A stretch of 37,133 bases of DNA from Erysipelothrix sp. (GTDB taxonomy: Bacteria > Bacillota_I > Bacilli_A > Erysipelotrichales > Erysipelotrichaceae): assembly GCA_012512595.1 (NCBI GenBank), contig JAAZDW010000025.1, positions 1 through 37,133 on the forward strand. The letters are read 5' to 3'. Shown piece after piece: positions 10,885-22,947 of this stretch. The translations under genes and the position numbers were made by a program. Within the stretch, counting starts at the first letter, position 1, and every line of letters begins with the position of its first letter. Below the pieces are notes generated by a model. That model did no database searches. It saw only the letters and a program-made list of their open reading frames with translations, and was not told where the DNA came from.

Positions 10885-12588
10885 ATGAATAATTTTAGAA
10901 CGTTTATAAATAAACTCCAACAAGCAATACTTGGCTTTGCCCAACAAATAATGATTCTAGCTTTAGTTTTAGGGACAATTGGATTTTTAATATTTGAATT
11001 ACTTTTTAGCCAACCGATTAATTTAAATAATGGTTTTATGATATTAATCATTTTTGTGCTGATTTGGATGTTTATTATGACGCTACCCATAAATAGAAAA
11101 GATCAACAATCAAGACCACAATTTGATGATAGTGTAAAAACTAAAGGAAATCATAAACTAACGGTTACATTGGTCATGGTTTTATTAGCAACACTCTTAA
11201 TCGCGCTAAATGCCCTGACATCTAGGGTTCTAATGTCCAAGCAATATGCGAATTTGATTGGTGATATTGAAATGGTTGATTTTAAAGATATCTATAATGA
11301 AGACAATCTAATTGAATCATCATATATTGATAAAAATGCAGCTTTGATTGCCGCTGAAAAAAAGATTGGTGAGCTTGCTGACTTATCCTCGATTTATACT
11401 GTCGATGTTGATAACTTCTCAAAGATTAAGTATAAAGGAAAATTAGTTAGAATTGCACCACTAAAACATATTAACTATAATTATCGATTAAGAGAAAATA
11501 ATAAGGGTATTCCTTACTATGTCATGGTTGATGTTAGTGACAATAAAACAAGTGCTAAGGCTGAATTGATTAATATAGCTGACCACCCGATTAAATATTC
11601 ACCAAACGCAATGTTTTTTAAGTCTTTAAAAAGAGTCGCCTTTATGCACAATCCAACCCATACTTATGGGCGGGCAACCTTTGAGCTAGATGAAGGTGGT
11701 GTGCCATACTTTAGTATCCCAATTTTGGGCCATAAATTTTTTGGTGTCAATGGTGATTATTTGAAAAAAGTTTTACTCGTTAATGCAAGTACTGGAGACG
11801 CAGTTGAATATGAGCCGGAGGATGTACCAACGTGGGTTGATCGAGTTTATCCAACCAATCTAATGTTAAATCAAGCTTCTGACCACTTTACTTTAAAAAA
11901 TGGTTTTTGGGGACCAAAAGATATGATTTGGTCTAACCGGGTTGGTCTAAAGACAATAGATACACAAATTGATGATTACAACTATATTACAATTGATAAT
12001 GATATTTATATATTTACAGGTGTTAGACCACTTAGTGGAGAAGGAAGTTCTACAACAAGCATGCTTTATATGAATATTAAGACAGGCAAGGTAAAAGAAA
12101 TGAATCTGGCTGGGGTAAGTTTAAAGGCTGCTGAAATAGCTGCTACAGAAAGTGTTATTGAAAAAGGCTACACTGCAACAACTCCAAACCTTTTAGACAT
12201 TGCAGGTCATCCAACTTATGTTATGACTTTAAAAAGTGAATCGGGGACAAGTTATGGTTTTTCTATGATTAACTATACTGACTTAAACCTAAATGCTTTT
12301 GGCAATTCACTTTATGAAGTTAGAAAAAACTATTTGACAGTTATGGGCGGTAATTCCTCAGTTGTAAGTGATGATACAATCGAAGGTGAATATACTATTC
12401 AAGATATAAAAAGTGTCACCATCGAAGGCAACACTCAGTATTTTATTCGTTTTGGTGAAAAAGCAGAAGTTTATACTGCTGATATTAACTTAAATAGTTA
12501 CTTACCATTTATTATTGCAGGTGATAAAGTTAGTATCTCTACTCAAGGAAACGTAATTACTTATTTTGAAGTAGTAGAAATTGAATAA
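10885..12588 (+). CDS. Uncharacterised 567-aa membrane-anchored protein
   Basis: I cannot assign a family. Three hydrophobic helices are visible at about residues 15-40, 50-67 and 91-111. About 455 residues follow that should form one large domain on one side of the membrane. This part contains two strand-rich segments with a similar opening (GIPYYVMVDV near 210 and GVPYFSIPI near 271, the latter followed by VLLVNASTGDAVEY), which recall PepSY-like folds, plus a C-terminal beta-rich segment of about 60 residues. There is no cysteine or obvious catalytic motif. AGAGGT precedes the ATG at 10885. It is flanked by terminators on both sides, so it is monocistronic. A cell-envelope role is a guess. 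Confidence 0.85.
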   Translation: MNNFRTFINKLQQAILGFAQQIMILALVLGTIGFLIFELLFSQPINLNNGFMILIIFVLIWMFIMTLPINRKDQQSRPQFDDSVKTKGNHKLTVTLVMVLLATLLIALNALTSRVLMSKQYANLIGDIEMVDFKDIYNEDNLIESSYIDKNAALIAAEKKIGELADLSSIYTVDVDNFSKIKYKGKLVRIAPLKHINYNYRLRENNKGIPYYVMVDVSDNKTSAKAELINIADHPIKYSPNAMFFKSLKRVAFMHNPTHTYGRATFELDEGGVPYFSIPILGHKFFGVNGDYLKKVLLVNASTGDAVEYEPEDVPTWVDRVYPTNLMLNQASDHFTLKNGFWGPKDMIWSNRVGLKTIDTQIDDYNYITIDNDIYIFTGVRPLSGEGSSTTSMLYMNIKTGKVKEMNLAGVSLKAAEIAATESVIEKGYTATTPNLLDIAGHPTYVMTLKSESGTSYGFSMINYTDLNLNAFGNSLYEVRKNYLTVMGGNSSVVSDDTIEGEYTIQDIKSVTIEGNTQYFIRFGEKAEVYTADINLNSYLPFIIAGDKVSISTQGNVITYFEVVEIE

Positions 12589-12755: not shown

Positions 12756-13634
12756 TTACTCTATGCATTTAAAAAACTCTTTAGCGGCAGGGGTTAAATT
12801 ATGATTTTTATCATATACCAGATTTATTGACCTGGTTAAGTCGGTATCTTTCAAGTCAAGAGTTTTAAGTAGTCCTAGTTTATTTTCATGTTGTACAGCT
12901 TTTTCCGACATAATTGAAATGCCAAGATTTTTCAAAACAGCTTCTTTTATCCCTTCTTGGTTACTAATTTTAAGTAAGACATTATCTTTAAAAAAATCCT
13001 TGCCAATTCTTTTGCATAAAAATTTGTACATGGAAGAGTTTTCACCTTTAAGTATGAAAGTTTCGTCATTAATATCACTAAAAGTTATGCTTGTTCTGTT
13101 AGCGAGTTTATGGTTTGAATTTACTATTACTTTTAAGTTATCTTTAAAAACTTCATGAATTACAAATCTTTCCTTAATTAAATCAATATAACCAGACAGA
13201 AAAGCAAACTCAATGGTATCATTTTCAAGTAAAGCAATTAACTTTTTCGAGCTAGAAATTGTGAAGTTTATTTGTATTTTAGGAAATTTTTCTCTAAAAG
13301 TCGCTAATATTTCGGGTATTAGATAAACGCCGATGAAATTTGTGGCACCAAAATTAATTGAACCTTCTTCTAAATTCTCGAGTTGTAAAATATGTTCTTT
13401 AGCCATAGAGTAAGTGTTAACTATTTCTTGCGCATAGCGTTTAAAATAAACTCCTTGTATTGTCAAATGATTTTTCTTACCGATTCGATTAAAGAGTGGC
13501 ACTCCAAGTTCATCTTCAAGGGTTTTTATTTGCTTACTGACAGCAGGTTGTGAACAATACAGTTGATTAGCTACTTCTGTAAAACTACCTAATTCTGTCA
13601 AAAGTAGAAATGTTTCTAAGCGTGTTATATCCAT
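12756..13634 (-). CDS. LysR-family transcriptional regulator
   Basis: This is a 292-residue LysR-type regulator. Residues 1-60 form the winged helix-turn-helix (METFLLL-like N-terminus, GSFTEVANQLYCSQPAVSKQIKTLE, PLFNRIGKKNHLT). Residues 88-290 form the periplasmic-binding-protein-like effector domain, with INFGATNFIGVYLIPEIL and FLSGYIDL. AAGGAGAT precedes the ATG. It is divergent from the DASS transporter gene, and the 208-base gap contains its own promoter and a palindromic LysR box, so it very probably controls that transporter operon in response to a transported or related metabolite. The effector is not known. Confidence 0.95.
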   Translation of the reverse strand: MDITRLETFLLLTELGSFTEVANQLYCSQPAVSKQIKTLEDELGVPLFNRIGKKNHLTIQGVYFKRYAQEIVNTYSMAKEHILQLENLEEGSINFGATNFIGVYLIPEILATFREKFPKIQINFTISSSKKLIALLENDTIEFAFLSGYIDLIKERFVIHEVFKDNLKVIVNSNHKLANRTSITFSDINDETFILKGENSSMYKFLCKRIGKDFFKDNVLLKISNQEGIKEAVLKNLGISIMSEKAVQHENKLGLLKTLDLKDTDLTRSINLVYDKNHNLTPAAKEFFKCIE

Positions 13635-13710
13635 ATTTAAATATCTCCTTCTGTTTGAGAGTATAAAACTAATAAAAACTACTTTAATGGTAATGAATCA
13701 GTCTGTTCTT

Positions 13711-13738
13711 ATTATAACTTAAAGTTATGATTAGTCAA
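13711..13738 (-). promoter_or_regulatory. Promoter of the LysR-type gene
   Basis: On the minus strand, TTGACT (13738-13733) and TATAAT (13716-13711) are separated by 16 bases, a near-consensus sigma-A promoter. The palindromic LysR box occupies the spacer and part of the -10, the classic arrangement for autorepression. Confidence 0.75.
13714..13728. promoter_or_regulatory. LysR box (T-N11-A palindrome)
   Basis: ATAACTTAAAGTTAT is a perfect 15-base palindrome around a central A and contains TAACTTAAAGTTA, the T-N11-A form of LysR-type recognition sites. It is centred about 64 bases upstream of the start expected from the plus-strand promoter at 13750-13778, the usual recognition-site position. 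It also overlaps the lysR-type gene's own promoter. Confidence 0.7.
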
Positions 13739-13749
13739 ACAAATAAGAA

Positions 13750-13778
13750 TTGTATTATAGATGGGTTTACCTTAATAT
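13750..13778 (+). promoter_or_regulatory. Candidate promoter of the transporter-ApgM operon
   Basis: TTGTAT (13750-13755) and TAATAT (13773-13778) are spaced by exactly 17 bases. Both hexamers deviate from consensus, as expected for an activator-dependent promoter. Confidence 0.5.
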
Positions 13779-13809
13779 AGATTTGTACAGGTCACACATA
13801 GTTGATCGA

Positions 13810-13828
13810 AACTTATTATTTATAAGTT
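13810..13828 (+). other. Leader hairpin next to the ribosome-binding site of the transporter gene
   Basis: AACTTAT (13810-13816) and ATAAGTT (13822-13828) form a 7-bp stem with a 5-base loop ending directly at AAGGAGG. The stem could influence ribosome access or mRNA stability. Confidence 0.35.
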
Positions 13829-13842
13829 AAGGAGGAAATTTA

Positions 13843-15306
13843 ATGAATGAAAAAAAAGTAAGCACCAAAAGAGAGGCGAATAAGACTGAGGCGTTAATGG
13901 CCAAATATGGCATATACGTATCATTAGCAGTACTACTAGTACTTTATTTTATGCCTCTCCCAAATGGTATGACAGAAGTAGGGCAAAAAAGTTTAGCGAT
14001 ATTCTTGTTTGCACTTATAATGTGGGTTACAAAACCAATACCTATCTATCTAACTTCACTGATTGCGATTTTAATATTACCGTTAACAGGTGCAGTTGAA
14101 TCTACAAAAGTTGCATTTGGAACACTTGGATTTGAAGTAATTTGGTTAATGGTTGCTGCCTTTGTGTTAACATCAGCGATGAATCAAACTAATCTAGGAA
14201 AACGTTTTGCGCTTAATATGGTCACTAAATATGGAAGAACACCAAAAGCTCTATTAGCAGTATTAGTAGTCGTTAACTTTGCCTTGGCCTTTTTTGTGCC
14301 ATCGACAACAGCACGTGCATCATTACTAGTACCAATTGTCTTAATTCTTCTGGAAATCTATCAAGCCTTACCAGGCGAAAGTAAATTTGGAAAACTATTA
14401 ATGTTACAAGGTGTTCAAAATAATCACTTTGCGACAAGTATGATTATGACTGCCACATCAGGACAAGTTATAGCTATTGGCTTTATTAATGAAATGACTG
14501 GTGCAAGTTTAGGCTATATGGATTGGTTGATTGGATCTATGCCTCAAGCGATCTTGACTGCAGTAGTAATGTTTATTATTGGTTTAAAAATATTTAAGCC
14601 AGAAACACTTGCTTCTGATATGAAAGCAGTTAATGGTCGAATGACTTCACAACTTGCAGAATTAGGGGCAATGACAACAAGAGAGAAAAAAGCTGCTGCT
14701 TATTTTGCTTTAACTTTATTCTTATGGGCTACCGGTGACTATCAAAAAGCACTTTTAGGCTTTGAATTAGGAACTACTCAAGTTGCGGTATTAAGTATGG
14801 TTCTAATGTTGATGCCAAAAATTGGTGTTATTGAATGGAAAGAAGCAAATATTAAATGGGACTTAATGTTGTTTTCTGCAGGAGCTTATGCAGTAGGGAA
14901 TGCCCTTAATGATTCAGGTGGAGCTACATGGGTAATTGATGGCTTGGTTAATAGAATTGGCTTAGATTTGCTGCCACATTCAGTGGTTGCTGTAGTGTTA
15001 ATATTTATTTCAGTGTTTAGTCATATTATCTTTACAAGTAAAACAGTTAGAACTACAATTTTAATACCGGCTACAGTTACACTTGCTGTTTCATTAGGAA
15101 TGGAGCCAGTTCCAATTGCCTTAGCGGTTGCATTTGGAATTGCTTATACAACAACACTACCACCACATTCAAAAGTAAATACTTTATACTTTAGTACAGG
15201 TTACTTCTCTGTTTTAGAGCAATTATTATTTGGACTGCTTGCTTCCTTTGTTGGTTCTGTAATGATTTCACTAGTCTACTTCCTGTGGTTACCGATAATA
15301 CTATAG
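13843..15306 (+). CDS. DASS/SLC13-family anion:Na+ symporter
   Basis: This 487-residue integral membrane protein belongs to the divalent anion:sodium symporter (DASS/SLC13) family, whose members carry dicarboxylates, citrate, sulfate or related anions. It has about a dozen hydrophobic helices. The re-entrant-loop motif equivalent to SNT is FVPSTTARASLLVPI (residues 151-165), with a helix-hairpin entry at ITKPIPIYLTSL-like VTKPIPIYLTSL (near 62). The C-terminal repeat has TTTLPPHSKVNTLYFSTGYF. AAGGAGG precedes the ATG. Thirty-nine bases separate it from the ApgM-like gene, implying a shared transcript, and a divergent LysR-type gene probably regulates it. The substrate cannot be told from sequence; the downstream phospho-enzyme makes an organic anion with a phosphate group possible. 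Confidence 0.92.
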   Translation: MNEKKVSTKREANKTEALMAKYGIYVSLAVLLVLYFMPLPNGMTEVGQKSLAIFLFALIMWVTKPIPIYLTSLIAILILPLTGAVESTKVAFGTLGFEVIWLMVAAFVLTSAMNQTNLGKRFALNMVTKYGRTPKALLAVLVVVNFALAFFVPSTTARASLLVPIVLILLEIYQALPGESKFGKLLMLQGVQNNHFATSMIMTATSGQVIAIGFINEMTGASLGYMDWLIGSMPQAILTAVVMFIIGLKIFKPETLASDMKAVNGRMTSQLAELGAMTTREKKAAAYFALTLFLWATGDYQKALLGFELGTTQVAVLSMVLMLMPKIGVIEWKEANIKWDLMLFSAGAYAVGNALNDSGGATWVIDGLVNRIGLDLLPHSVVAVVLIFISVFSHIIFTSKTVRTTILIPATVTLAVSLGMEPVPIALAVAFGIAYTTTLPPHSKVNTLYFSTGYFSVLEQLLFGLLASFVGSVMISLVYFLWLPIIL

Positions 15307-15345
15307 TATTCATAAATTAAGACATTTAAGAAAGGTAAGAAAATT

Positions 15346-16581
15346 ATGAAAAGAAAAGTTTTAATAGCTATAGCTGATGGGGTTGGAGATTTACCAATCA
15401 GTGAACTGGGTGGCTTAACTCCCCTAGAATATGCCAAAACACCTACTCTTGATAAACTCGCCGCTCAAGGGTCAAGCGGGATTATGGATTTAGTAAAAGC
15501 GGGAGTCCCAGTAGGGACAGATATGGGTCACTTAATGTTATTTGGTTATAAAACTACTGATTATCCGGGCCGCGGTCCAATTGAAGCTGCAGGGATTGGT
15601 TTAGAGCTTTTTAAAGGTGACGTTGCTTTTAGATGTAACTTTGCAACTATTGATGAAAAAGGCGAAGTCCTAGACCGTAGAGCTGGAAGAATTCGAGATA
15701 ATACGAGGGAAATAGCCCAAGCGATAAATGGTTTAGAAGTACAAGGCGTTAAAGTAATTTTTAAAGAAGCAACTGAACATCGAGCTGTCTTAATCTTACG
15801 GGGAGAAAATCTTAGTGATAATATTACAGATACAGACCCAAGATTGCCTGACAGAGGTTTATCTTATAAATTATCTGTCCCCCTAGATGATAGTGTCGCT
15901 GCAAAAAGAACAGCGGATATTTTAAATAAGGTTTTAGAAGAGTTTCATAAAATATTAGAAAATCATCCAGTTAATGTTGAGCGAAAAAAAGAAAACAAAT
16001 TTCCTGCGAATTTTATATTAACTAGAGGCGCAGGCCAAGTGCCAGATATTGATAAAATCACTAAAAGATTGGGCTTTAAAGGTGCTTGTGTGGCTTCCGA
16101 AAGTACTGTCTTAGGAGTTGCGAATCTTGCTGGTTATGATTTAATTGTACAAGAAGGAATGACGGGAAACCTTGATACAGATGTAAGGTTAAAAGCCGAT
16201 TTGGCGATCAAAGCTTTAGAAACAAATGATATTGTATTTGTGCACTTAAAAGCAACAGACCTTATGGGCCATGACAACAATCCAAAGGGTAAGGTTGTTG
16301 CAATAGAGAAATTTGAAGAAATGCTAACATATATAGTTGACAATAGATCTGATAACACAATGATTGCTTTAGCAGCAGATCATTCCACTCCATGTGAAAG
16401 AAAAGAACACTCTGGAGATCCAGTGCCAATCTTATTAAATGGACCAAGTATAAGATTGGATAGAAATGATAAGTATAATGAGATTGATTGCGCTTATGGC
16501 GGTATAGGGCGTATAACGGGTTCTGACTTTGCGAGTATAATCTTTGATTACTTAGAGGTCACCCCAAAACAAGGAAACTAA
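15346..16581 (+). CDS. ApgM-like 2,3-bisphosphoglycerate-independent phosphoglycerate mutase homologue
   Basis: This 411-residue cytosolic member of the alkaline phosphatase superfamily is of the archaeal-type ApgM group. Matching segments are IADGVGDLPISELGG (metal ligand Asp11), GRGPIEAAGIGL, DVAFRCNFATID and RRAGRIRDNT. C-terminal metal motifs are TDLMGHDNNP near 305 and ADHSTP near 345, with a further His in EHSGDPVP. In ApgM the nucleophile is Ser within a G-S-D-x-A-H-L motif; here the motif is GTDMGHLMLFGY, with Thr58 in that position. This could still be a mutase, but Thr nucleophiles are known in superfamily phosphodiesterases and phosphonoacetate hydrolase. Its placement behind a dedicated transporter argues for a catabolic substrate rather than core glycolysis. 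The family call is firm; the reaction is uncertain. Confidence 0.85.
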   Translation: MKRKVLIAIADGVGDLPISELGGLTPLEYAKTPTLDKLAAQGSSGIMDLVKAGVPVGTDMGHLMLFGYKTTDYPGRGPIEAAGIGLELFKGDVAFRCNFATIDEKGEVLDRRAGRIRDNTREIAQAINGLEVQGVKVIFKEATEHRAVLILRGENLSDNITDTDPRLPDRGLSYKLSVPLDDSVAAKRTADILNKVLEEFHKILENHPVNVERKKENKFPANFILTRGAGQVPDIDKITKRLGFKGACVASESTVLGVANLAGYDLIVQEGMTGNLDTDVRLKADLAIKALETNDIVFVHLKATDLMGHDNNPKGKVVAIEKFEEMLTYIVDNRSDNTMIALAADHSTPCERKEHSGDPVPILLNGPSIRLDRNDKYNEIDCAYGGIGRITGSDFASIIFDYLEVTPKQGN

Positions 16582-16588
16582 AATTAAT

Positions 16589-16633
16589 AAAATCGTAACT
16601 AAATAGTCAATCTATTAAAGGTTACGATTTTTT
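16589..16633 (+). terminator. Terminator after the ApgM-like gene
   Basis: AAAATCGTAAC (16589-16599) and GTTACGATTTT (16621-16631) are perfect complements, with an inner ATAG/CTAT stem, and the right arm ends in six T. Confidence 0.88.
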
Positions 16634-16776: not shown

Positions 16777-16805
16777 TTGACATCGCTTACATTAGAAGGT
16801 ATAAT
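16777..16805 (+). promoter_or_regulatory. Perfect consensus sigma-A promoter
   Basis: TTGACA (16777-16782) and TATAAT (16800-16805) with a 17-base spacer match the vegetative consensus at every position. The promoter lies 53 bases before the substrate-binding-protein gene and should drive the long operon that follows. Such a strong promoter is often kept in check by a repressor. Confidence 0.92.
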
Positions 16806-16858: not shown

Positions 16859-17998
16859 ATGTCTAAAAAATTAATTACTTCGCTTCTTGCTATGTTTTTA
16901 GTCTTATCATTAGTTACCGCTTGTGGAACTAAAGATGACGATGAAAAGCAACCAGATCAAGAAGTGGTCATGACTCATGAGGAATTAGTAGAGGCTGCAA
17001 AAGCTGAAGGTAAAGTTGTTGTATATTCAACTACTTCAAGAATTGCGGGAGCAGCAGAGAAATTTACAGCAAAATATGGGATAGAAGTTGAATCATCAAA
17101 TTTAAAAGATGGGGAACTTATTGAAAAGGTTTCACGTGAGGTTTCAGGAAATATTCAAGGTGCAGACTTAGTTCTAGCACAAGATAGTGGACGTGTTGCT
17201 GGTCAATTAATTAATCCAGGATACTTAGTGAACTATGTTCCAGAAAGCTTTAAGGATATTATTCCAGAGCATTATCATTCACCATTAGCATTCCAATTAG
17301 TTAATAAAGTATTTATTTTCAATAGTGAAAAAGGCGATGACCCAGTAATTGATAACGTTTGGGAATTAACAGAGCCACAATGGAATGGTCTAGTACAATT
17401 TAAAGATCCTAACCAAGAAGGTGTTAACTCTAACTTCCTGACGATGGTTACTTCTAAAGAATGGTCAGATAAATTAGCTGAAGCTTATAAAGATCATTTT
17501 GGAAAAGAAATTGAATTAACTACAGACAATGCAGGATTTGAATGGTTAAAAATGTTCTTTAACAACGGTGTTGTTTTAGGTACAAGTGATACAAACATTT
17601 CAGAAAACGTTGGTATAAAAGGTCAAGCTCAAACAGGTATGGGATTATTTGTTTATTCTAAAACTCGTTTTGATGAAACTAAAAACCTTTCATTAGCGCC
17701 AATGACTAATATTAAACCATTCTCAGGATTCTATTATCCAATATATCTTCAATTAACAAGTAATGCTCAAAATACAGCAGCAGCAAAACTGCTTATTGAA
17801 TTTCTATTAACTGAAGAAGGATACGAACCATGGTCATCAAACGTTGGAGCATATTCAAGTAATCCAAATATTCCAATTAATGAAGGCGACCACCCACTAG
17901 CATTTTGGGAAGAAATCTTAGTATTAGAAGACCCAGATTTCCTATATGAAAATCGTAGTCAAGTTGAAGAGTTCGTAAATAAAGTTATTAATGAGTAA
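16859..17998 (+). CDS. ABC transporter substrate-binding lipoprotein (AfuA/FbpA-like)
   Basis: This 379-residue extracellular lipoprotein captures the ligand for the ABC transporter encoded next to it. A lysine-rich signal peptide ends in the lipobox LVTAC, with Cys22 the lipidated residue, followed by an acidic linker. The mature part resembles the iron/sugar-phosphate binding group of periplasmic-binding proteins: EAAKAEGKVVVYSTTS near 50, GADLVLAQDSG near 100, NVWELTEPQWNGLVQFKDP near 165, and AAKLLIEFLLTEEGYEPW near 310. Fe3+-binding members carry a Tyr pair; here GFYYPIY near 284 includes YY, but the context is not decisive. AfuA of Actinobacillus, from the same broad group, binds hexose phosphates. 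GGGAGGA precedes the ATG. Confidence 0.9.
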   Translation: MSKKLITSLLAMFLVLSLVTACGTKDDDEKQPDQEVVMTHEELVEAAKAEGKVVVYSTTSRIAGAAEKFTAKYGIEVESSNLKDGELIEKVSREVSGNIQGADLVLAQDSGRVAGQLINPGYLVNYVPESFKDIIPEHYHSPLAFQLVNKVFIFNSEKGDDPVIDNVWELTEPQWNGLVQFKDPNQEGVNSNFLTMVTSKEWSDKLAEAYKDHFGKEIELTTDNAGFEWLKMFFNNGVVLGTSDTNISENVGIKGQAQTGMGLFVYSKTRFDETKNLSLAPMTNIKPFSGFYYPIYLQLTSNAQNTAAAKLLIEFLLTEEGYEPWSSNVGAYSSNPNIPINEGDHPLAFWEEILVLEDPDFLYENRSQVEEFVNKVINE

Positions 17999-18019
17999 TA
18001 AGTAATAACTAATATATTT

Positions 18020-18053
18020 AACTATAAACCTTGAAAGAGGTTTATAGTTTTAG
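18020..18053 (+). terminator. Intercistronic hairpin, probable attenuator or mRNA stabiliser
   Basis: AACTATAAACCT (18020-18031) pairs perfectly over 12 bp with AGGTTTATAGTT (18038-18049) around a 6-base loop, followed only by TTAG. It sits between the binding-protein and permease genes. A partial stop here would yield more binding protein than membrane components, which is common for ABC importers. Confidence 0.7.
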
Positions 18054-18067
18054 ATAAGGGGTGTTTT

Positions 18068-19861
18068 ATGTCAATAAAGAATAGTTTGAAGGCTTATTTT
18101 AGTAAGCCACAAAATGTTATATTGGTCATGCTACTAGCCGTTTTATCATTCCTGACGATGTTCCCTTTATTATCTTTAATAAAAGATACAGTAACCGTAC
18201 ATCCATCAGAGTTGATGAGTATACCGGGATCGAGTGTTGGAGATTTAACGTCATTCCATTGGAAGAAAGTATTCTTCGATGGTGAAAATAGTAAAATCAT
18301 GTTTTATAAGCCATTGTGGAATACAATTAAAATATCAATTGGAAGTTCATTTTTGGCAATTACTTTAGGGGGTTCTGTGGCTTGGTTAATTACTAGGTCA
18401 AACCTTAAGTTTAAAAGTTTAATAAGTACGTTGTTTGTCCTTCCATATATAATGCCATCATGGACATTAGCTATGGCTTGGTTAAACTTCTTTAGAAATA
18501 GTCATATCGGTGGTGCGCCAGGATTATTTACAGCACTAACAGGGATCGCAACTCCAAATTGGTTTGCCTATGGTCCATTTCCAATAGTTATGGTATTGGG
18601 TCTACACTATGCGCCTTTTGCATATATCCTTGTAGGTGGAATTCTTAAAAATATGGATGCTAACTTAGAAGAAGCAGCAACCATTCTTAAGACAAGTCGT
18701 TTTAAAATAATGACTAGAATTACGATTCCAATTATAATGCCAGCAATACTATCAACATTCTTGTTGACGTTTTCGTCATCAATGAGTGCCTTTGCAGTAC
18801 CGGCCTTTTTGGGGACGCCAGTTAGATATCAGGTTTTAACTACGCAGTTGTATCGAACTCTAAATGGTTTAAACCCAGGCTATGGTTATATTATGGCAAT
18901 TGTCATGATTGTTATTGGTCTTGTCATTTTAATGTTTAACCAAAGATATGTTGGAAAGCGTAAATCATTTACAACAGTAACTGGTAAGAGTTCACAAATA
19001 TCACTAGTGGACTTAAGAAGGTTAAGAAATGTTATTTCATATGGTTTATTGACTTTCTTAATGTTGATAGCTGTTGTTCCGCTAATCACATTTGCGGTTG
19101 AATCATTTATCCTAGCACCAGGTGATTATTCTTGGTCTAACTTTACAACTCTATTTTGGACAGGCGAAGGCCGTTTTGATATAGGTGGTGGAGAACCAGG
19201 TGTTTTACGTAATAGATATATTTATTTAGGTTTATGGAATAGTATTAAACTTTCAGTAGTTGCATCACTAATTGCTGGTACTTTCGGAATTTTGACAGGC
19301 TATGCAGTTGTAAAAGGGAAAAATTCAAAACTTGCAGTATTTGTAAATAATTTAGCTTTCTTCCCATATTTAATGCCATCAATGGCTTTTGGTGCAATAT
19401 ACTTATCAATGTTTTCTAAGCGAAATCTATTTATACCTTCGCTCTATGGAACTTTCTTCTTGTTAGCCTTGGTTGGTTCAGTTAAATACCTGCCTTTTGC
19501 TTCAAGATCAGGAGTTAATGCGATGTTGCAGCTGAGTGATGAAATTGAAGAAGCCGCTATAATACAAGGAGTTAGTTGGAGAAAGAGGATGACAAAGATT
19601 ATCTTCCCAATTCAAAAATCAAGCTTCTTGTCCGGATATTTACTTCCGTTTATGTCGGCAATGAGGGAGTTATCATTGTTTATTTTGCTAATAACTCCGG
19701 CAAATCGAGTTCTAACTACAATGTTATTCCAATATAATGAAAAAGGTTGGAACCAATACGCAAATGCAATTAACCTAATGATTATTGCTATTGTATTAAT
19801 CTTTAATACCTTAGTTAATAAGTTTACAGGTGCTTCAATAGATAAGGGGATAGGTGGATAA
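18068..19861 (+). CDS. ABC transporter permease, two fused permease domains
   Basis: This 597-residue membrane protein contains two consecutive binding-protein-dependent permease domains of the FbpB/SfuB/AfuB type, about 12 membrane helices in all. Each half carries the EAA coupling loop that contacts the ATPase: EEAATILKTSRFKIMTRITIP near 205 and EEAAIIQGVSWRKRMTKIIFP near 497. The halves are separated by a charged linker near residues 295-320. The next gene's ATG follows its stop after one base, so permease and ATPase are translationally coupled. The fused architecture is typical of Fe3+, phosphonate and sugar-phosphate importers. Confidence 0.93.
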   Translation: MSIKNSLKAYFSKPQNVILVMLLAVLSFLTMFPLLSLIKDTVTVHPSELMSIPGSSVGDLTSFHWKKVFFDGENSKIMFYKPLWNTIKISIGSSFLAITLGGSVAWLITRSNLKFKSLISTLFVLPYIMPSWTLAMAWLNFFRNSHIGGAPGLFTALTGIATPNWFAYGPFPIVMVLGLHYAPFAYILVGGILKNMDANLEEAATILKTSRFKIMTRITIPIIMPAILSTFLLTFSSSMSAFAVPAFLGTPVRYQVLTTQLYRTLNGLNPGYGYIMAIVMIVIGLVILMFNQRYVGKRKSFTTVTGKSSQISLVDLRRLRNVISYGLLTFLMLIAVVPLITFAVESFILAPGDYSWSNFTTLFWTGEGRFDIGGGEPGVLRNRYIYLGLWNSIKLSVVASLIAGTFGILTGYAVVKGKNSKLAVFVNNLAFFPYLMPSMAFGAIYLSMFSKRNLFIPSLYGTFFLLALVGSVKYLPFASRSGVNAMLQLSDEIEEAAIIQGVSWRKRMTKIIFPIQKSSFLSGYLLPFMSAMRELSLFILLITPANRVLTTMLFQYNEKGWNQYANAINLMIIAIVLIFNTLVNKFTGASIDKGIGG

Positions 19862-19862
19862 A

Positions 19863-20984
19863 ATGCCAGAAATTATTTTAAAAAATGTAACAAAAAAGTT
19901 TGGTGACTTTGTTGCAGTCGATAATTTAAGTATGACAATAAAAGATGGGGACTTTATTACATTATTAGGTCCTTCAGGGTGTGGGAAAACTACAACACTA
20001 AGAATGATTGCAGGACTTGAAACTCCGACAGAAGGCGACATCCTAATTGATGGGAAAGTAGTTTTTTCAGCAGAACATGGAGTAAATGTAACTCCAGATA
20101 AGCGAAATGTTGGATTTTTGTTTCAAAACTATGCACTATGGCCACACATGACGGTATATCAAAATATATCATTTGGTCTAGAAAATATGAAATGGAATAA
20201 AGATCGAATTAAAGCGCGTGTTCAAGAAATAGTTGAAATGTTAGAAATTGAACAATTTCAAGAACGTTATCCAAATGAGTTATCAGGGGGTCAGCAACAA
20301 CGTGTTGCTATTGCTAGAACCCTAGCACCAGGACCTAAGGTATTATTTATGGATGAGCCGTTAAGTAACTTAGACGCTAAATTAAGAATGGATATGCGTA
20401 CAGAGTTAAAACGTCTTCACGTTGAAACTGGATCAACATTTGTTTATGTTACCCATGATCAATTAGAAGCGATGACGCTTTCAACAAAAATATGTTTATT
20501 AAAAGAAGGGGTTTTAAATCAATACGAACCACCTTTAGACATTTATAATCGTCCAATAAATACATTTGTCGCAGACTTTGTTGGTAATCCAACAATGAAC
20601 TTCATTGATGCGAAAGCTACTAATGTAAACTTTGATGAAATCAAAGTTGAGTTTAATGGAGTTAACACATTATTTCAACCAAGTGATGGCCAAGTAACAC
20701 TATCGGAAAATCAAGAAGTAATTCTTGGCGTTCGTCCAGAATATATAAAAATAAGTGAAAAAGGTAGTTTAGTTGGGAAAATATATTCAACCCTACCATC
20801 CGGACTTGAAACAGTTGTAAAAGTTGACTTTGAAGGTCTTATCTTAACAGTTGTTGTCTTTGGTGATGTTGACTTTATAGTTGATGAAGAATTAAGGTTT
20901 GACTTTACTGGAGATAGGTGTATATTATTTGATAAAGATACAAAGGAATTTATAACACAGGGGTCACTAACAGTAGTAACCTAA
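19863..20984 (+). CDS. ABC transporter ATP-binding protein (PotA/FbpC type)
   Basis: This 373-residue cytosolic ATPase energises the adjacent importer. All motifs are intact: Walker A GPSGCGKTT near residue 39, Q-loop FLFQNYALWPHM near 86, signature LSGGQQQRVAIARTL near 139, Walker B VLFMDEPLSNLD near 160, and the switch His in VTHDQLEAM near 198. The last 110 residues form a TOBE-like regulatory domain (ILGVRPEYIKI near 291). The aromatic before the Walker A region seen in many ABC proteins is Phe (KKFGDFVAVDNL). ATG 19863 is chosen because GGTGG (19853-19857) lies just upstream; an in-frame GTG at 19854 would sit inside that site. Confidence 0.95.
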   Translation: MPEIILKNVTKKFGDFVAVDNLSMTIKDGDFITLLGPSGCGKTTTLRMIAGLETPTEGDILIDGKVVFSAEHGVNVTPDKRNVGFLFQNYALWPHMTVYQNISFGLENMKWNKDRIKARVQEIVEMLEIEQFQERYPNELSGGQQQRVAIARTLAPGPKVLFMDEPLSNLDAKLRMDMRTELKRLHVETGSTFVYVTHDQLEAMTLSTKICLLKEGVLNQYEPPLDIYNRPINTFVADFVGNPTMNFIDAKATNVNFDEIKVEFNGVNTLFQPSDGQVTLSENQEVILGVRPEYIKISEKGSLVGKIYSTLPSGLETVVKVDFEGLILTVVVFGDVDFIVDEELRFDFTGDRCILFDKDTKEFITQGSLTVVT

Positions 20985-21002
20985 GTTAGAAGGAGAAACC
21001 CA

Positions 21003-21692
21003 ATGAATAAAATTTTAATAGTTGACGATGAAGCGCACATTGTTGAGTTTCTCCAACTAAATTTAGAAAGAAATGGTTGGCAAACAATAATTGCTAAAGA
21101 TGGTGAAGCTGCGATTCAAAAAGCTATAAAACACAAACCAGACTGTATTTTGTTAGATATCATGATGCCAAAGGTTAATGGCTTTGAAGTATGTCGCAGA
21201 ATAAAGGAAATTGAAGAGACAAAGTTAATACCAGTCATTATAATTACGGCAAAAAGTGAAGAAAGTGATATGGTTCTTGGTTTAAACCTTGGTGCAGACG
21301 ATTACATCGTCAAACCATTTAGATTGCGTGAACTTTTCGCAAGAATTGATGCAGTGACAAGAAGATTTCAAAACGCATCTAGCTCACAAACATCACTTGA
21401 TAAAACTATTGATATCGGTGACTTGAAAATTGACTTATCGCGCTATTCTGTAACAGTGGACAAAACACAAATCCATCTAACTCCAAATGAGTTTAATATT
21501 TTGCTTGAATTGGCTAATAATCTTAATAAACTTACTTCTCGTACCTGTCTTTTTGACTCTTTAGATTCAGATGAGACCAGCGATGAAAGTAGAACTATTG
21601 ATGTTCATATAAGCAATTTAAGAAAGAAAATTAAAAGTGATAAATTTTCAATTGAAACAATAAGGGGTAAAGGATTTATTTTAAATGGTTAG
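21003..21692 (+). CDS. Response regulator, OmpR/PhoB family
   Basis: This 229-residue DNA-binding response regulator has a receiver domain at residues 1-120, with acidic pair Asp8/Asp9, phospho-acceptor Asp52 in ILLDIMMP, Thr in IIITAKSEE near 83 and Lys in DYIVKPF near 104. A winged helix at 130-229 has LTPNEFNILLELA, the recognition helix in SRTIDVHISNLRKKI, and the wing IETIRGKGFIL. It lies 18 bases after the ATPase gene behind AGAAGGAGA and overlaps the kinase gene by 8 bases. A partner kinase and a transporter in one operon suggest it regulates this locus, possibly through the inverted repeats near 16688-16728. Confidence 0.95.
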   Translation: MNKILIVDDEAHIVEFLQLNLERNGWQTIIAKDGEAAIQKAIKHKPDCILLDIMMPKVNGFEVCRRIKEIEETKLIPVIIITAKSEESDMVLGLNLGADDYIVKPFRLRELFARIDAVTRRFQNASSSQTSLDKTIDIGDLKIDLSRYSVTVDKTQIHLTPNEFNILLELANNLNKLTSRTCLFDSLDSDETSDESRTIDVHISNLRKKIKSDKFSIETIRGKGFILNG

Positions 21693-22947
21693 CATTTATA
21701 AAATATCATTAAATGAGTATATATTTAGTGTTACAACAATAGCTGTAATCCTTACAATAACTTGTGTCTATTTGGTTTTTAAATTAGTAATTCAAACACA
21801 AAAATTAAATAAATTCCGTTATCGCCTAAAAGTCAAAAATGAACAAGCTTATGAAAATCTCCAATATGAACTACATCGAAGGCGTTTGAGCTTTGATCGA
21901 AACAATATTACAGCTAACTACATAAACTCTGTTTTTCAAACAATGGAAGATGGTTTTGTAGTATTTGATGAGAGTCAAAACATAATTTTAATCAATCCGA
22001 GTGCTATTAAACTTTTAAATGCAGATAAAGGTGTTTTCTTTAAAGCTGATAGCAAATTATATGGAGAAAAATTTCAAGAAATGACTAGGATTTGCCAAAA
22101 AGTATTAGAAACAGACACAAGTATCAGTGAAATTGTCAAATTTGATAATGATAAGTTTTATCGCTATACAGTTTCTAAAATTTTTGATAAGTATTCAGAT
22201 GGCAAATTTATGGGTTTATTAGTTTCGGTTACTGACATCAGTGAGACTGAACAAAGTGATCGTTTGAAAAAAGAGTTTATTGAAAATATTTCCCATGAAT
22301 TTAGAACACCAATGACGCTTATAACTGGATACATTGAGATGTTGCGGATGTGGCATGACTTAGAAGATGATGTAAGGGAACGCGCTTATGATGTCATTGA
22401 GTTTGAGACAACCAGATTAAATTCTTTAGTAGATGAATTAGTAACCTTATCAAAAGTAGATGGTGATTTCAAGCCAGAAACATCAATATTTGATGTAAAT
22501 AAAACACTGGCTTTATTGGTGGAATCACTAAGAGAATTTGAAAAAAAACGTAATGTACAATTAAATTTAATTAAGCACAAAGATGAAATATTGCTAAGTG
22601 TCAGTAAAAATTACTTTATTCAGGCGGTTTCAAATATTATTGAAAATGCAATAAAATATACTTACAAAAAAGATACAATTGAGATAAAAATATCTTTAGA
22701 AGAAGATTTATGTAAAATAGAAATTAAAGATAATGGCCCAGGAATTGATGAGGGACATTTGCATCGGATTTATGATCGTTTTTATAGATTAGAAAAGGAT
22801 AGAAATTCTGAAAGTGGTGGCAGCGGTTTAGGGCTTGCTATTAGTAAAGACATGATTACTTCAATGGATGGAAGTTTAAAAGTCATTAGTGAAGTAAATG
22901 TAGGGACAACTTTCATTATCGAAATTCCAATATTTAAAGGAGAATAA
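21685..22947 (+). CDS. PhoR-like sensor histidine kinase
   Basis: This is a 420-residue membrane histidine kinase. It has a single N-terminal membrane helix (about 13-36), a helical segment to 80, a PAS domain (about 83-190, starting VFQTMEDGFVVFDESQNI), and HisKA with phospho-acceptor His204 in NISHEFRTPMTLITGY. The catalytic domain has N-box NIIENAIKYT, G1 DNGPGIDEGH, F-box IYDRFYRL and G2 GGSGLGLAIS. Only about ten residues precede the membrane helix, so there is no extracellular sensor domain. The signal must be read in the cytoplasm by the PAS domain or through a membrane partner such as the ABC permease, as PhoR does with Pst. The start codon overlaps the regulator gene. Confidence 0.95.
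   Translation: MVSIYKISLNEYIFSVTTIAVILTITCVYLVFKLVIQTQKLNKFRYRLKVKNEQAYENLQYELHRRRLSFDRNNITANYINSVFQTMEDGFVVFDESQNIILINPSAIKLLNADKGVFFKADSKLYGEKFQEMTRICQKVLETDTSISEIVKFDNDKFYRYTVSKIFDKYSDGKFMGLLVSVTDISETEQSDRLKKEFIENISHEFRTPMTLITGYIEMLRMWHDLEDDVRERAYDVIEFETTRLNSLVDELVTLSKVDGDFKPETSIFDVNKTLALLVESLREFEKKRNVQLNLIKHKDEILLSVSKNYFIQAVSNIIENAIKYTYKKDTIEIKISLEEDLCKIEIKDNGPGIDEGHLHRIYDRFYRLEKDRNSESGGSGLGLAISKDMITSMDGSLKVISEVNVGTTFIIEIPIFKGE

Follow-up and report, generated by a model that had tools for sequence, protein, structure and literature searches.

A recurrent LysR-DASS-ApgM cassette of Bacillota with threonine at the nucleophile position of its mutase-like enzyme: a candidate module for the uptake of phosphorylated acids

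Introduction

Why should a bacterium that has a complete phosphoglycerate mutase elsewhere in its genome also carry a mutase-like enzyme behind an anion transporter, with threonine in the place of the nucleophile serine? The question is raised by two adjoining genes in a contig of 37,133 nucleotides from Erysipelothrix sp. (JAAZDW010000025.1), the whole of which was analysed here and is referred to as the window. A preliminary description of this DNA had proposed that the genes form a dedicated unit with its own regulator, peripheral to glycolysis, and that the enzyme may be a catabolic one acting on an imported anion, either phosphorylated or a phosphono-carboxylate.

Results

The operon consists of a DASS-family transporter gene (13843-15306, + strand, 487 aa) and an ApgM-type gene (15346-16581, + strand, 411 aa), separated by 39 bases. 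A LysR-type regulator gene (12756-13634, - strand; PF00126 and PF03466) is divergent to them and lies just outside the span covered by the preliminary description, whose picture of an ApgM gene closely behind a DASS gene with its own LysR was correct. In a profile search this LysR remained below every listed cut-off for named LysR equivalogs; its homologues hold the equivalent position in nearly all cassettes described below. The intergenic region (13635-13842) is the expected LysR operator, and contains a Shine-Dalgarno sequence, AAGGAGG, before the DASS start. A promoter-like site for lysR (13738-13711, - strand) is a consensus match of a kind found 21 times against 19 expected, which is no evidence of function.

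Behind the ApgM gene we found a terminator-like hairpin (16589-16632, + strand) with a 12-bp outer stem followed by a U run, the RNA fold of which has an energy of -14.9 kcal/mol (z = -4.56; none of 200 shuffled sequences was as stable). It was not listed by a simple terminator scan, presumably because the rule used allows only loops of 3-8 bases. Given this hairpin, and a perfect -35/-10 consensus belonging to the next operon at 16777-16805, the LysR-DASS-ApgM unit probably ends at the ApgM gene. That next operon (16859-22947), preceded by a perfect sigma-70 promoter consensus, encodes an ABC transporter (binding protein, fused permease and ATPase) weakly like 2-aminoethylphosphonate transporter types, followed immediately by a PhoB/PhoR-like two-component system. 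These genes were considered as partners of the unit and rejected, given the intervening hairpin and promoter consensus and their absence from other cassettes. Elsewhere in the window, positions 10885-12588 encode a 567-aa membrane-anchored-looking protein without a Pfam match at 1e-5.

The ApgM-type protein scored above the cut-offs of both TIGR00306 (apgM; 427 bits, cut-off 320) and PRK04024 (phosphoglycerate mutase equivalog; 500 bits, cut-off 489). It remained below those of TIGR02535, the proposed homoserine kinase (276 bits, cut-off 446), with no thr genes adjoining, and of the PhpG phosphonoformyl transferase model NF038358 (267 bits, cut-off 545); the phosphonoacetate hydrolase family was absent from its Pfam and NCBIfam matches. 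Reading of the open reading frame confirmed that the metal ligands and family blocks are intact and that the nucleophile motif is G57-T58-D59-M60-G61-H62-L63, with Thr58 (ACA codon, 15517-15519, + strand, read directly from the sequence) for Ser and Gly61 for Ala/Ser. The AlphaFold model (pLDDT 86.8, with its lowest confidence in the metal site at 306-309 and 347-356) is closest to ApgM structures (2zkt, TM 0.85/0.91, E 2e-37), phosphopentomutase being the next-closest fold.

Compared with the archaeal ApgM enzymes (PH0037, 2zkt; Thermoplasma, 3idd and 3kd8), the cassette proteins are alike in fold, length, metal ligands and substrate-site residues. They agree with 2zkt and 3idd at D11, H62, R76, E80, R96, N98, D110, R111, R112, R115, H145, R146, R227, K302, D305, H309, D345, H346 and H355, of which R111, R112, R115, H145, R227 and K302 are absent from the homoserine-kinase-type paralogues. 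In a profile comparison with GpmI of the same genome only the C-terminal metal-binding part could be aligned, and ligand roles were therefore assigned by homology with GpmI; the roles of metal and substrate residues given here are accordingly predictions by homology. What sets the cassette proteins apart from the archaeal enzymes is Thr for Ser and Gly for Ala/Ser three residues further on, a DASS gene adjoining in every case seen and a host with another mutase.

Each of 29 distinct cassette proteins, that of the window included, has Thr58 and Gly61 and reads G-T-D-[ML]-G-H. An outlier of 44% identity (L107, genome G700), which also follows a LysR/DASS pair, reads G-T-D-W-G-H, bringing the total to 30/30. 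This invariance, extending to the outlier, indicates that the motif is due neither to chance nor to a sequencing error. In contrast, Ser is found at this position in 2zkt, 3idd and 3kd8 and in all nine non-cassette relatives (from Bacteroidota, including the thrA-apgM-thrC type, and from haloarchaeal, rhodococcal and gut contigs). ApgM matches in a phage collection, about 30% identical, have Ser in the three that were read. Threonine, which might have proved common in ApgM enzymes, was thus not found among the non-cassette relatives examined. In a tree the Thr proteins form one clade with support 99/92, the outgroup being a small sample from plasmid and phage collections in which a few branches are long; changes private to the clade include S58T, A/S61G, E252, N275 and R117. 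A shortened ApgM-like protein that has no usual nucleophile motif was seen behind an aminotransferase-like gene, possibly of the cobD/histidinol-phosphate type, in another genome (L054 1393-2355, G139), and is perhaps another repurposed ApgM.

About 29 Bacillota genomes carry the LysR/DASS/ApgM cassette, in gene neighbourhoods that bear no relation to each other, and it also occurs on mobilizable Macrococcus plasmids. A scan of 84,980 species genomes with narrow peptide patterns, which recovered only 5 of the 18 Paenibacillus-family units and is therefore no census, returned 14 close ApgM homologues, 55-60% identical and without exception from Bacillota: their sources are Paenibacillus, Brevibacillus, Facklamia, Erysipelotrichaceae MAGs and entries under the names Streptococcus and Carnobacterium. 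All 14 have a DASS gene directly upstream, and a divergent LysR gene is within reach except in L047 and L048 (short contig), so homologues with the G-T-D-x-G-H motif do co-occur with DASS and LysR genes, as the preliminary description had suggested should be checked. Within the Paenibacillus family, DASS is present in 18 of 105 genomes and followed by Thr-ApgM in each of the 18; within the window's own family, ApgM is present in 5 of 273 genomes, all five with DASS; and in a phylum sample DASS and ApgM were each found in 3 of 392 genomes, the same three. In the sampled Bacillota sets, every ApgM over cut-off was accompanied by DASS and every close DASS by ApgM. Flanking genes vary between cassettes, close relatives excepted, which identifies the LysR/DASS/ApgM unit itself as the conserved entity.

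Some copies deserve separate mention. Two Macrococcus plasmids, both mobilizable, carry the whole cassette (L055 5367-9059; L056 3544-7236), and in the first of them, a mecB plasmid, it lies about 6 kb from mecB. Nearly identical cassettes, with matching mutase scores, were found in records named Streptococcus sp. and Carnobacterium maltaromaticum (L038 and L040); one of these names may be wrong, or the unit may have been transferred recently. In L081, L082 and L102 (5432-6753, genome G502) the DASS gene is in two frames and ApgM is intact, as in a decaying or mis-sequenced copy. A scan of viral contigs with the DASS protein gave no match, and in the open-licence literature searched we found no paper joining DASS with this mutase and no description of the unit.

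The genome to which the window belongs (66% complete) encodes a full GpmI with the Ser motif MGNSEVGHN on another contig (C6), which answers the earlier question of a separate gpmI or gpmA; no second ApgM was found in it. GpmI was over cut-off in 14 of 15 other cassette genomes, two of which (G212 and G429) gave identical results and are probably the same genome, and GpmA was found in the remaining one, Facklamia. With a separate GpmI or GpmA in all 16 cassette genomes tested, Thr-ApgM is not the housekeeping mutase. Together with the DASS/LysR linkage, this supports the earlier view of a dedicated unit peripheral to glycolysis.

Known DASS proteins transport di- and tricarboxylates or sulfate. 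The window's transporter belongs to this family (235 bits against TIGR00785, cut-off 198.6), and the two SNT substrate/Na+ motifs of DASS cotransporters are absent from it; in their positions it has S154-T-T-A-R158 and S399-K-T-V-R403. STTAR and SKTV[RK] recur in every cassette homologue compared, as well as in a Klebsiella homologue described below, whereas CitT has SNTAR and SLSAH. The two Na+ sites are occupied in the exchanger LaINDY by Arg159 and His392, residues whose conservation is restricted to exchangers (PMC7553777). When aligned to 6wu1, the window's protein has Arg158 and Arg403 at the Na1 and Na2 surrogate positions, the second being Arg and not His, and it is therefore predicted from sequence to be an exchanger rather than a Na+ symporter. 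The second substrate motif also contains an invariant Lys400, and Asn145 stands at the position of LaINDY Glu146, both common to the cassette DASS proteins compared. These proteins thus share with LaINDY, CitT and plant DiT1 the family and basic residues at the two Na+ positions; they differ in having STTAR and SKTVR rather than SNxAR and SxxAH, in the more positive site created by Lys400 and Asn145, and in a partner gene that encodes a phospho-enzyme. Under the charge-compensation model for DASS (PMC7553777), a more positive site would suit a substrate more highly charged than a dicarboxylate.

Variants of the cassette offer hints to the substrate. Three genomes of the Paenibacillus family, of which two are close relatives, have an intact GAPDH paralogue (SCTTNC kept) and a chemoreceptor inserted in the cassette or following it, in two different layouts (L044 2421-8289; L090 7753-10559; L091 2034-4924); the paralogue is above the general GAPDH-I cut-off, and its best match is PRK07729, below the cut-off of that model. 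On plasmid pmk2 of Klebsiella sp. PL-2018 (L060 7924-11152), the gene after those for LysR and a DASS protein of 53% identity with the motifs STTAR/SKTVK encodes not ApgM but a small RHGE histidine phosphatase. This enzyme resembles phosphatases (CobC, PspA) more than a mutase and passes no cut-off, and its version of the unit was seen once; no DNA-level relative of the Klebsiella unit was found in E. coli genomes. The histidine-phosphatase superfamily is that of the other type of phosphoglycerate mutase, so that two unrelated superfamilies, each including both phosphoglycerate mutases and phosphatases, occupy the enzyme slot of the cassette. Together, the GAPDH neighbour and the Klebsiella enzyme point to a phosphoglycerate- or PEP-like acid as the substrate.

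Other variants are less easily placed. In the outlier unit (L107 3811-14549) a secreted-looking protein of 234 aa without a Pfam family is encoded between DASS and ApgM, a beta-CASP metallo-hydrolase lies behind the unit and, 1.4 kb past the end of the operon, there is a PhnDCE-like phosphonate/phosphite transporter. A glpX (FBPase) frame behind ApgM in L092 (3754-4554) was considered as a gluconeogenic partner and rejected as a 5'-truncated fragment: it begins at profile position 58 directly after the ApgM stop, lacking the first 57 positions, and is probably an insertion or deletion scar.

Discussion

We tentatively propose, as a reading with a real but not quite even chance of being right, that the cassette is a self-contained, horizontally moving module by which an external phosphorylated acid of the phosphoglycerate/PEP type is taken up and converted. 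In the many Firmicutes that carry it beside a normal mutase, the module is probably an accessory distinct from glycolysis. Judging from the divergent layout, LysR would sense the compound or its product and activate the DASS-ApgM operon. DASS would then import a highly charged anion, probably swapping it for an anion from inside the cell, phosphate for instance, rather than coupling its entry to Na+; such an exchange step is suggested by Arg158 and Arg403 at the Na+-surrogate positions and by the extra Lys400. ApgM, with two metal ions and Thr58 instead of Ser as phospho-acceptor, would either relocate the phosphate on the imported acid, from 2-phospho to 3-phospho, or remove it, and the carbon of the acid may enter lower glycolysis or gluconeogenesis. 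Several points weigh against this proposal. The GAPDH link is confined to three genomes, the Klebsiella enzyme is closer to phosphatases than to a mutase, and a PhnDCE-like transporter lies near the outlier unit. The exchanger prediction is by motif, and the DASS substrates known so far are di- and tricarboxylates or sulfate. A cell importing 2-PG, 3-PG or PEP could, strictly speaking, also manage with the mutase it already has, as the example of PgtP below suggests.

A precedent for such uptake is PgtP of Salmonella, a phosphoglycerate/PEP:phosphate antiporter which supports growth on PGA and PEP (PMC10715179). The proposed cassette function would resemble it in that 2-PG, 3-PG and PEP enter by exchange and under regulation; in contrast, PgtP is a major-facilitator protein under the control of a two-component system. 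The cassette adds an enzyme of its own, and we know of no dedicated mutase associated with PgtP. More specifically, and with greater reserve, it is possible that a DASS exchanger adapted to phosphorylated C3 acids (phosphoglycerates and PEP) and a Thr-dependent clade of phosphoglycerate mutases form a mobile cassette convergent with PgtP, the slot of which is open to two unrelated enzymes of mutase superfamilies.

Other functions would also fit part of these data. The Thr enzyme could be a phosphatase acting on an imported phospho-acid, the freed phosphate driving exchange in order to scavenge phosphorus or carbon; the Klebsiella slot holds an enzyme of the phosphatase branch, organophosphate:Pi antiport is the mode of PgtP, UhpT and GlpT (PMC10715179), and the DASS exchanger motifs are compatible with it. 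We nevertheless consider it unlikely, as a pure phosphatase would not need the ApgM substrate residues that hold glycerate for back-transfer, all of which are kept. Still less probable is the import and degradation of a phosphonate or phosphono-carboxylate, as raised by the preliminary description, which took Thr58 as a pointer to phosphodiesterase- or phosphonoacetate hydrolase-type activity. Thr is indeed the nucleophile of phosphonoacetate hydrolase and nucleotide phosphodiesterases, and phosphonate biosynthesis involves an ApgM relative, PhpG, against whose model the window's protein scores 267 bits (cut-off 545). The phosphonate transporter near the outlier unit keeps the idea alive, and the ABC operon of the window, weakly like 2-aminoethylphosphonate transporters, also speaks for it. 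However, each of the two ABC operons has the look of its own transcription unit and neither forms part of other cassettes, no match to the phosphonoacetate hydrolase family was obtained and both sequence and fold are those of ApgM. Moreover, Thr serves in a mutase as well: Thr85 is the phospho-acceptor of phosphopentomutase, and matches in our fold search name its T85 variants and phosphorylated structures. DeoB, of the same alkaline phosphatase superfamily, differs from the cassette enzyme in cap domain and substrate, and a separate deoB lies on contig C16 of the window's genome. Thr alone does not, therefore, imply hydrolysis, and this part of the earlier argument is not supported; what stands of the suggested catabolic enzyme for an imported anion is the dedicated, non-housekeeping unit. 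From the kept substrate residues and the GAPDH neighbour, we favour a phosphoglycerate-like substrate over a phosphonate.

It is also improbable that the enzyme phosphorylates a non-phosphorylated hydroxy acid imported by DASS, in the manner of the ApgM-type homoserine kinase proposed in Bacteroides (TIGR02535; PMC7311316). Paralogues of this type occur in thrA-apgM-thrC operons and are, like the cassette enzyme, tied to a specific pathway by gene order, and the di- and tricarboxylates carried by known DASS proteins would suit such a role. In contrast to the cassette enzyme, however, they keep Ser (G-S-E-V-A-N) and have lost R111, R112, R115, H145, R227 and K302, and the window's protein is far from the model (276 bits against 446). 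Finally, the enzyme passes the equivalog cut-off of PRK04024 and might be a second glycolytic mutase that happens to be carried along with an unrelated anion transporter, its Thr being a neutral change. This seems very improbable to us, given that GpmI or GpmA turned up in each of the genomes tested, that neither ApgM without DASS nor close DASS without ApgM was found in the sampled Bacillota sets, and that Thr and Gly are invariant over 30 sequences, which argues against neutral drift.

The Thr clade constitutes a natural test of the change from Ser to Thr as nucleophile in the alkaline phosphatase superfamily, and the presence of the cassette on a mobilizable mecB plasmid of Macrococcus indicates that the unit moves between hosts. 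If the proposed function is correct, the DASS family would gain a new class of substrates, phosphorylated acids, and a clade annotated as phosphoglycerate mutase would be part of a module for nutrient uptake rather than of glycolytic housekeeping.
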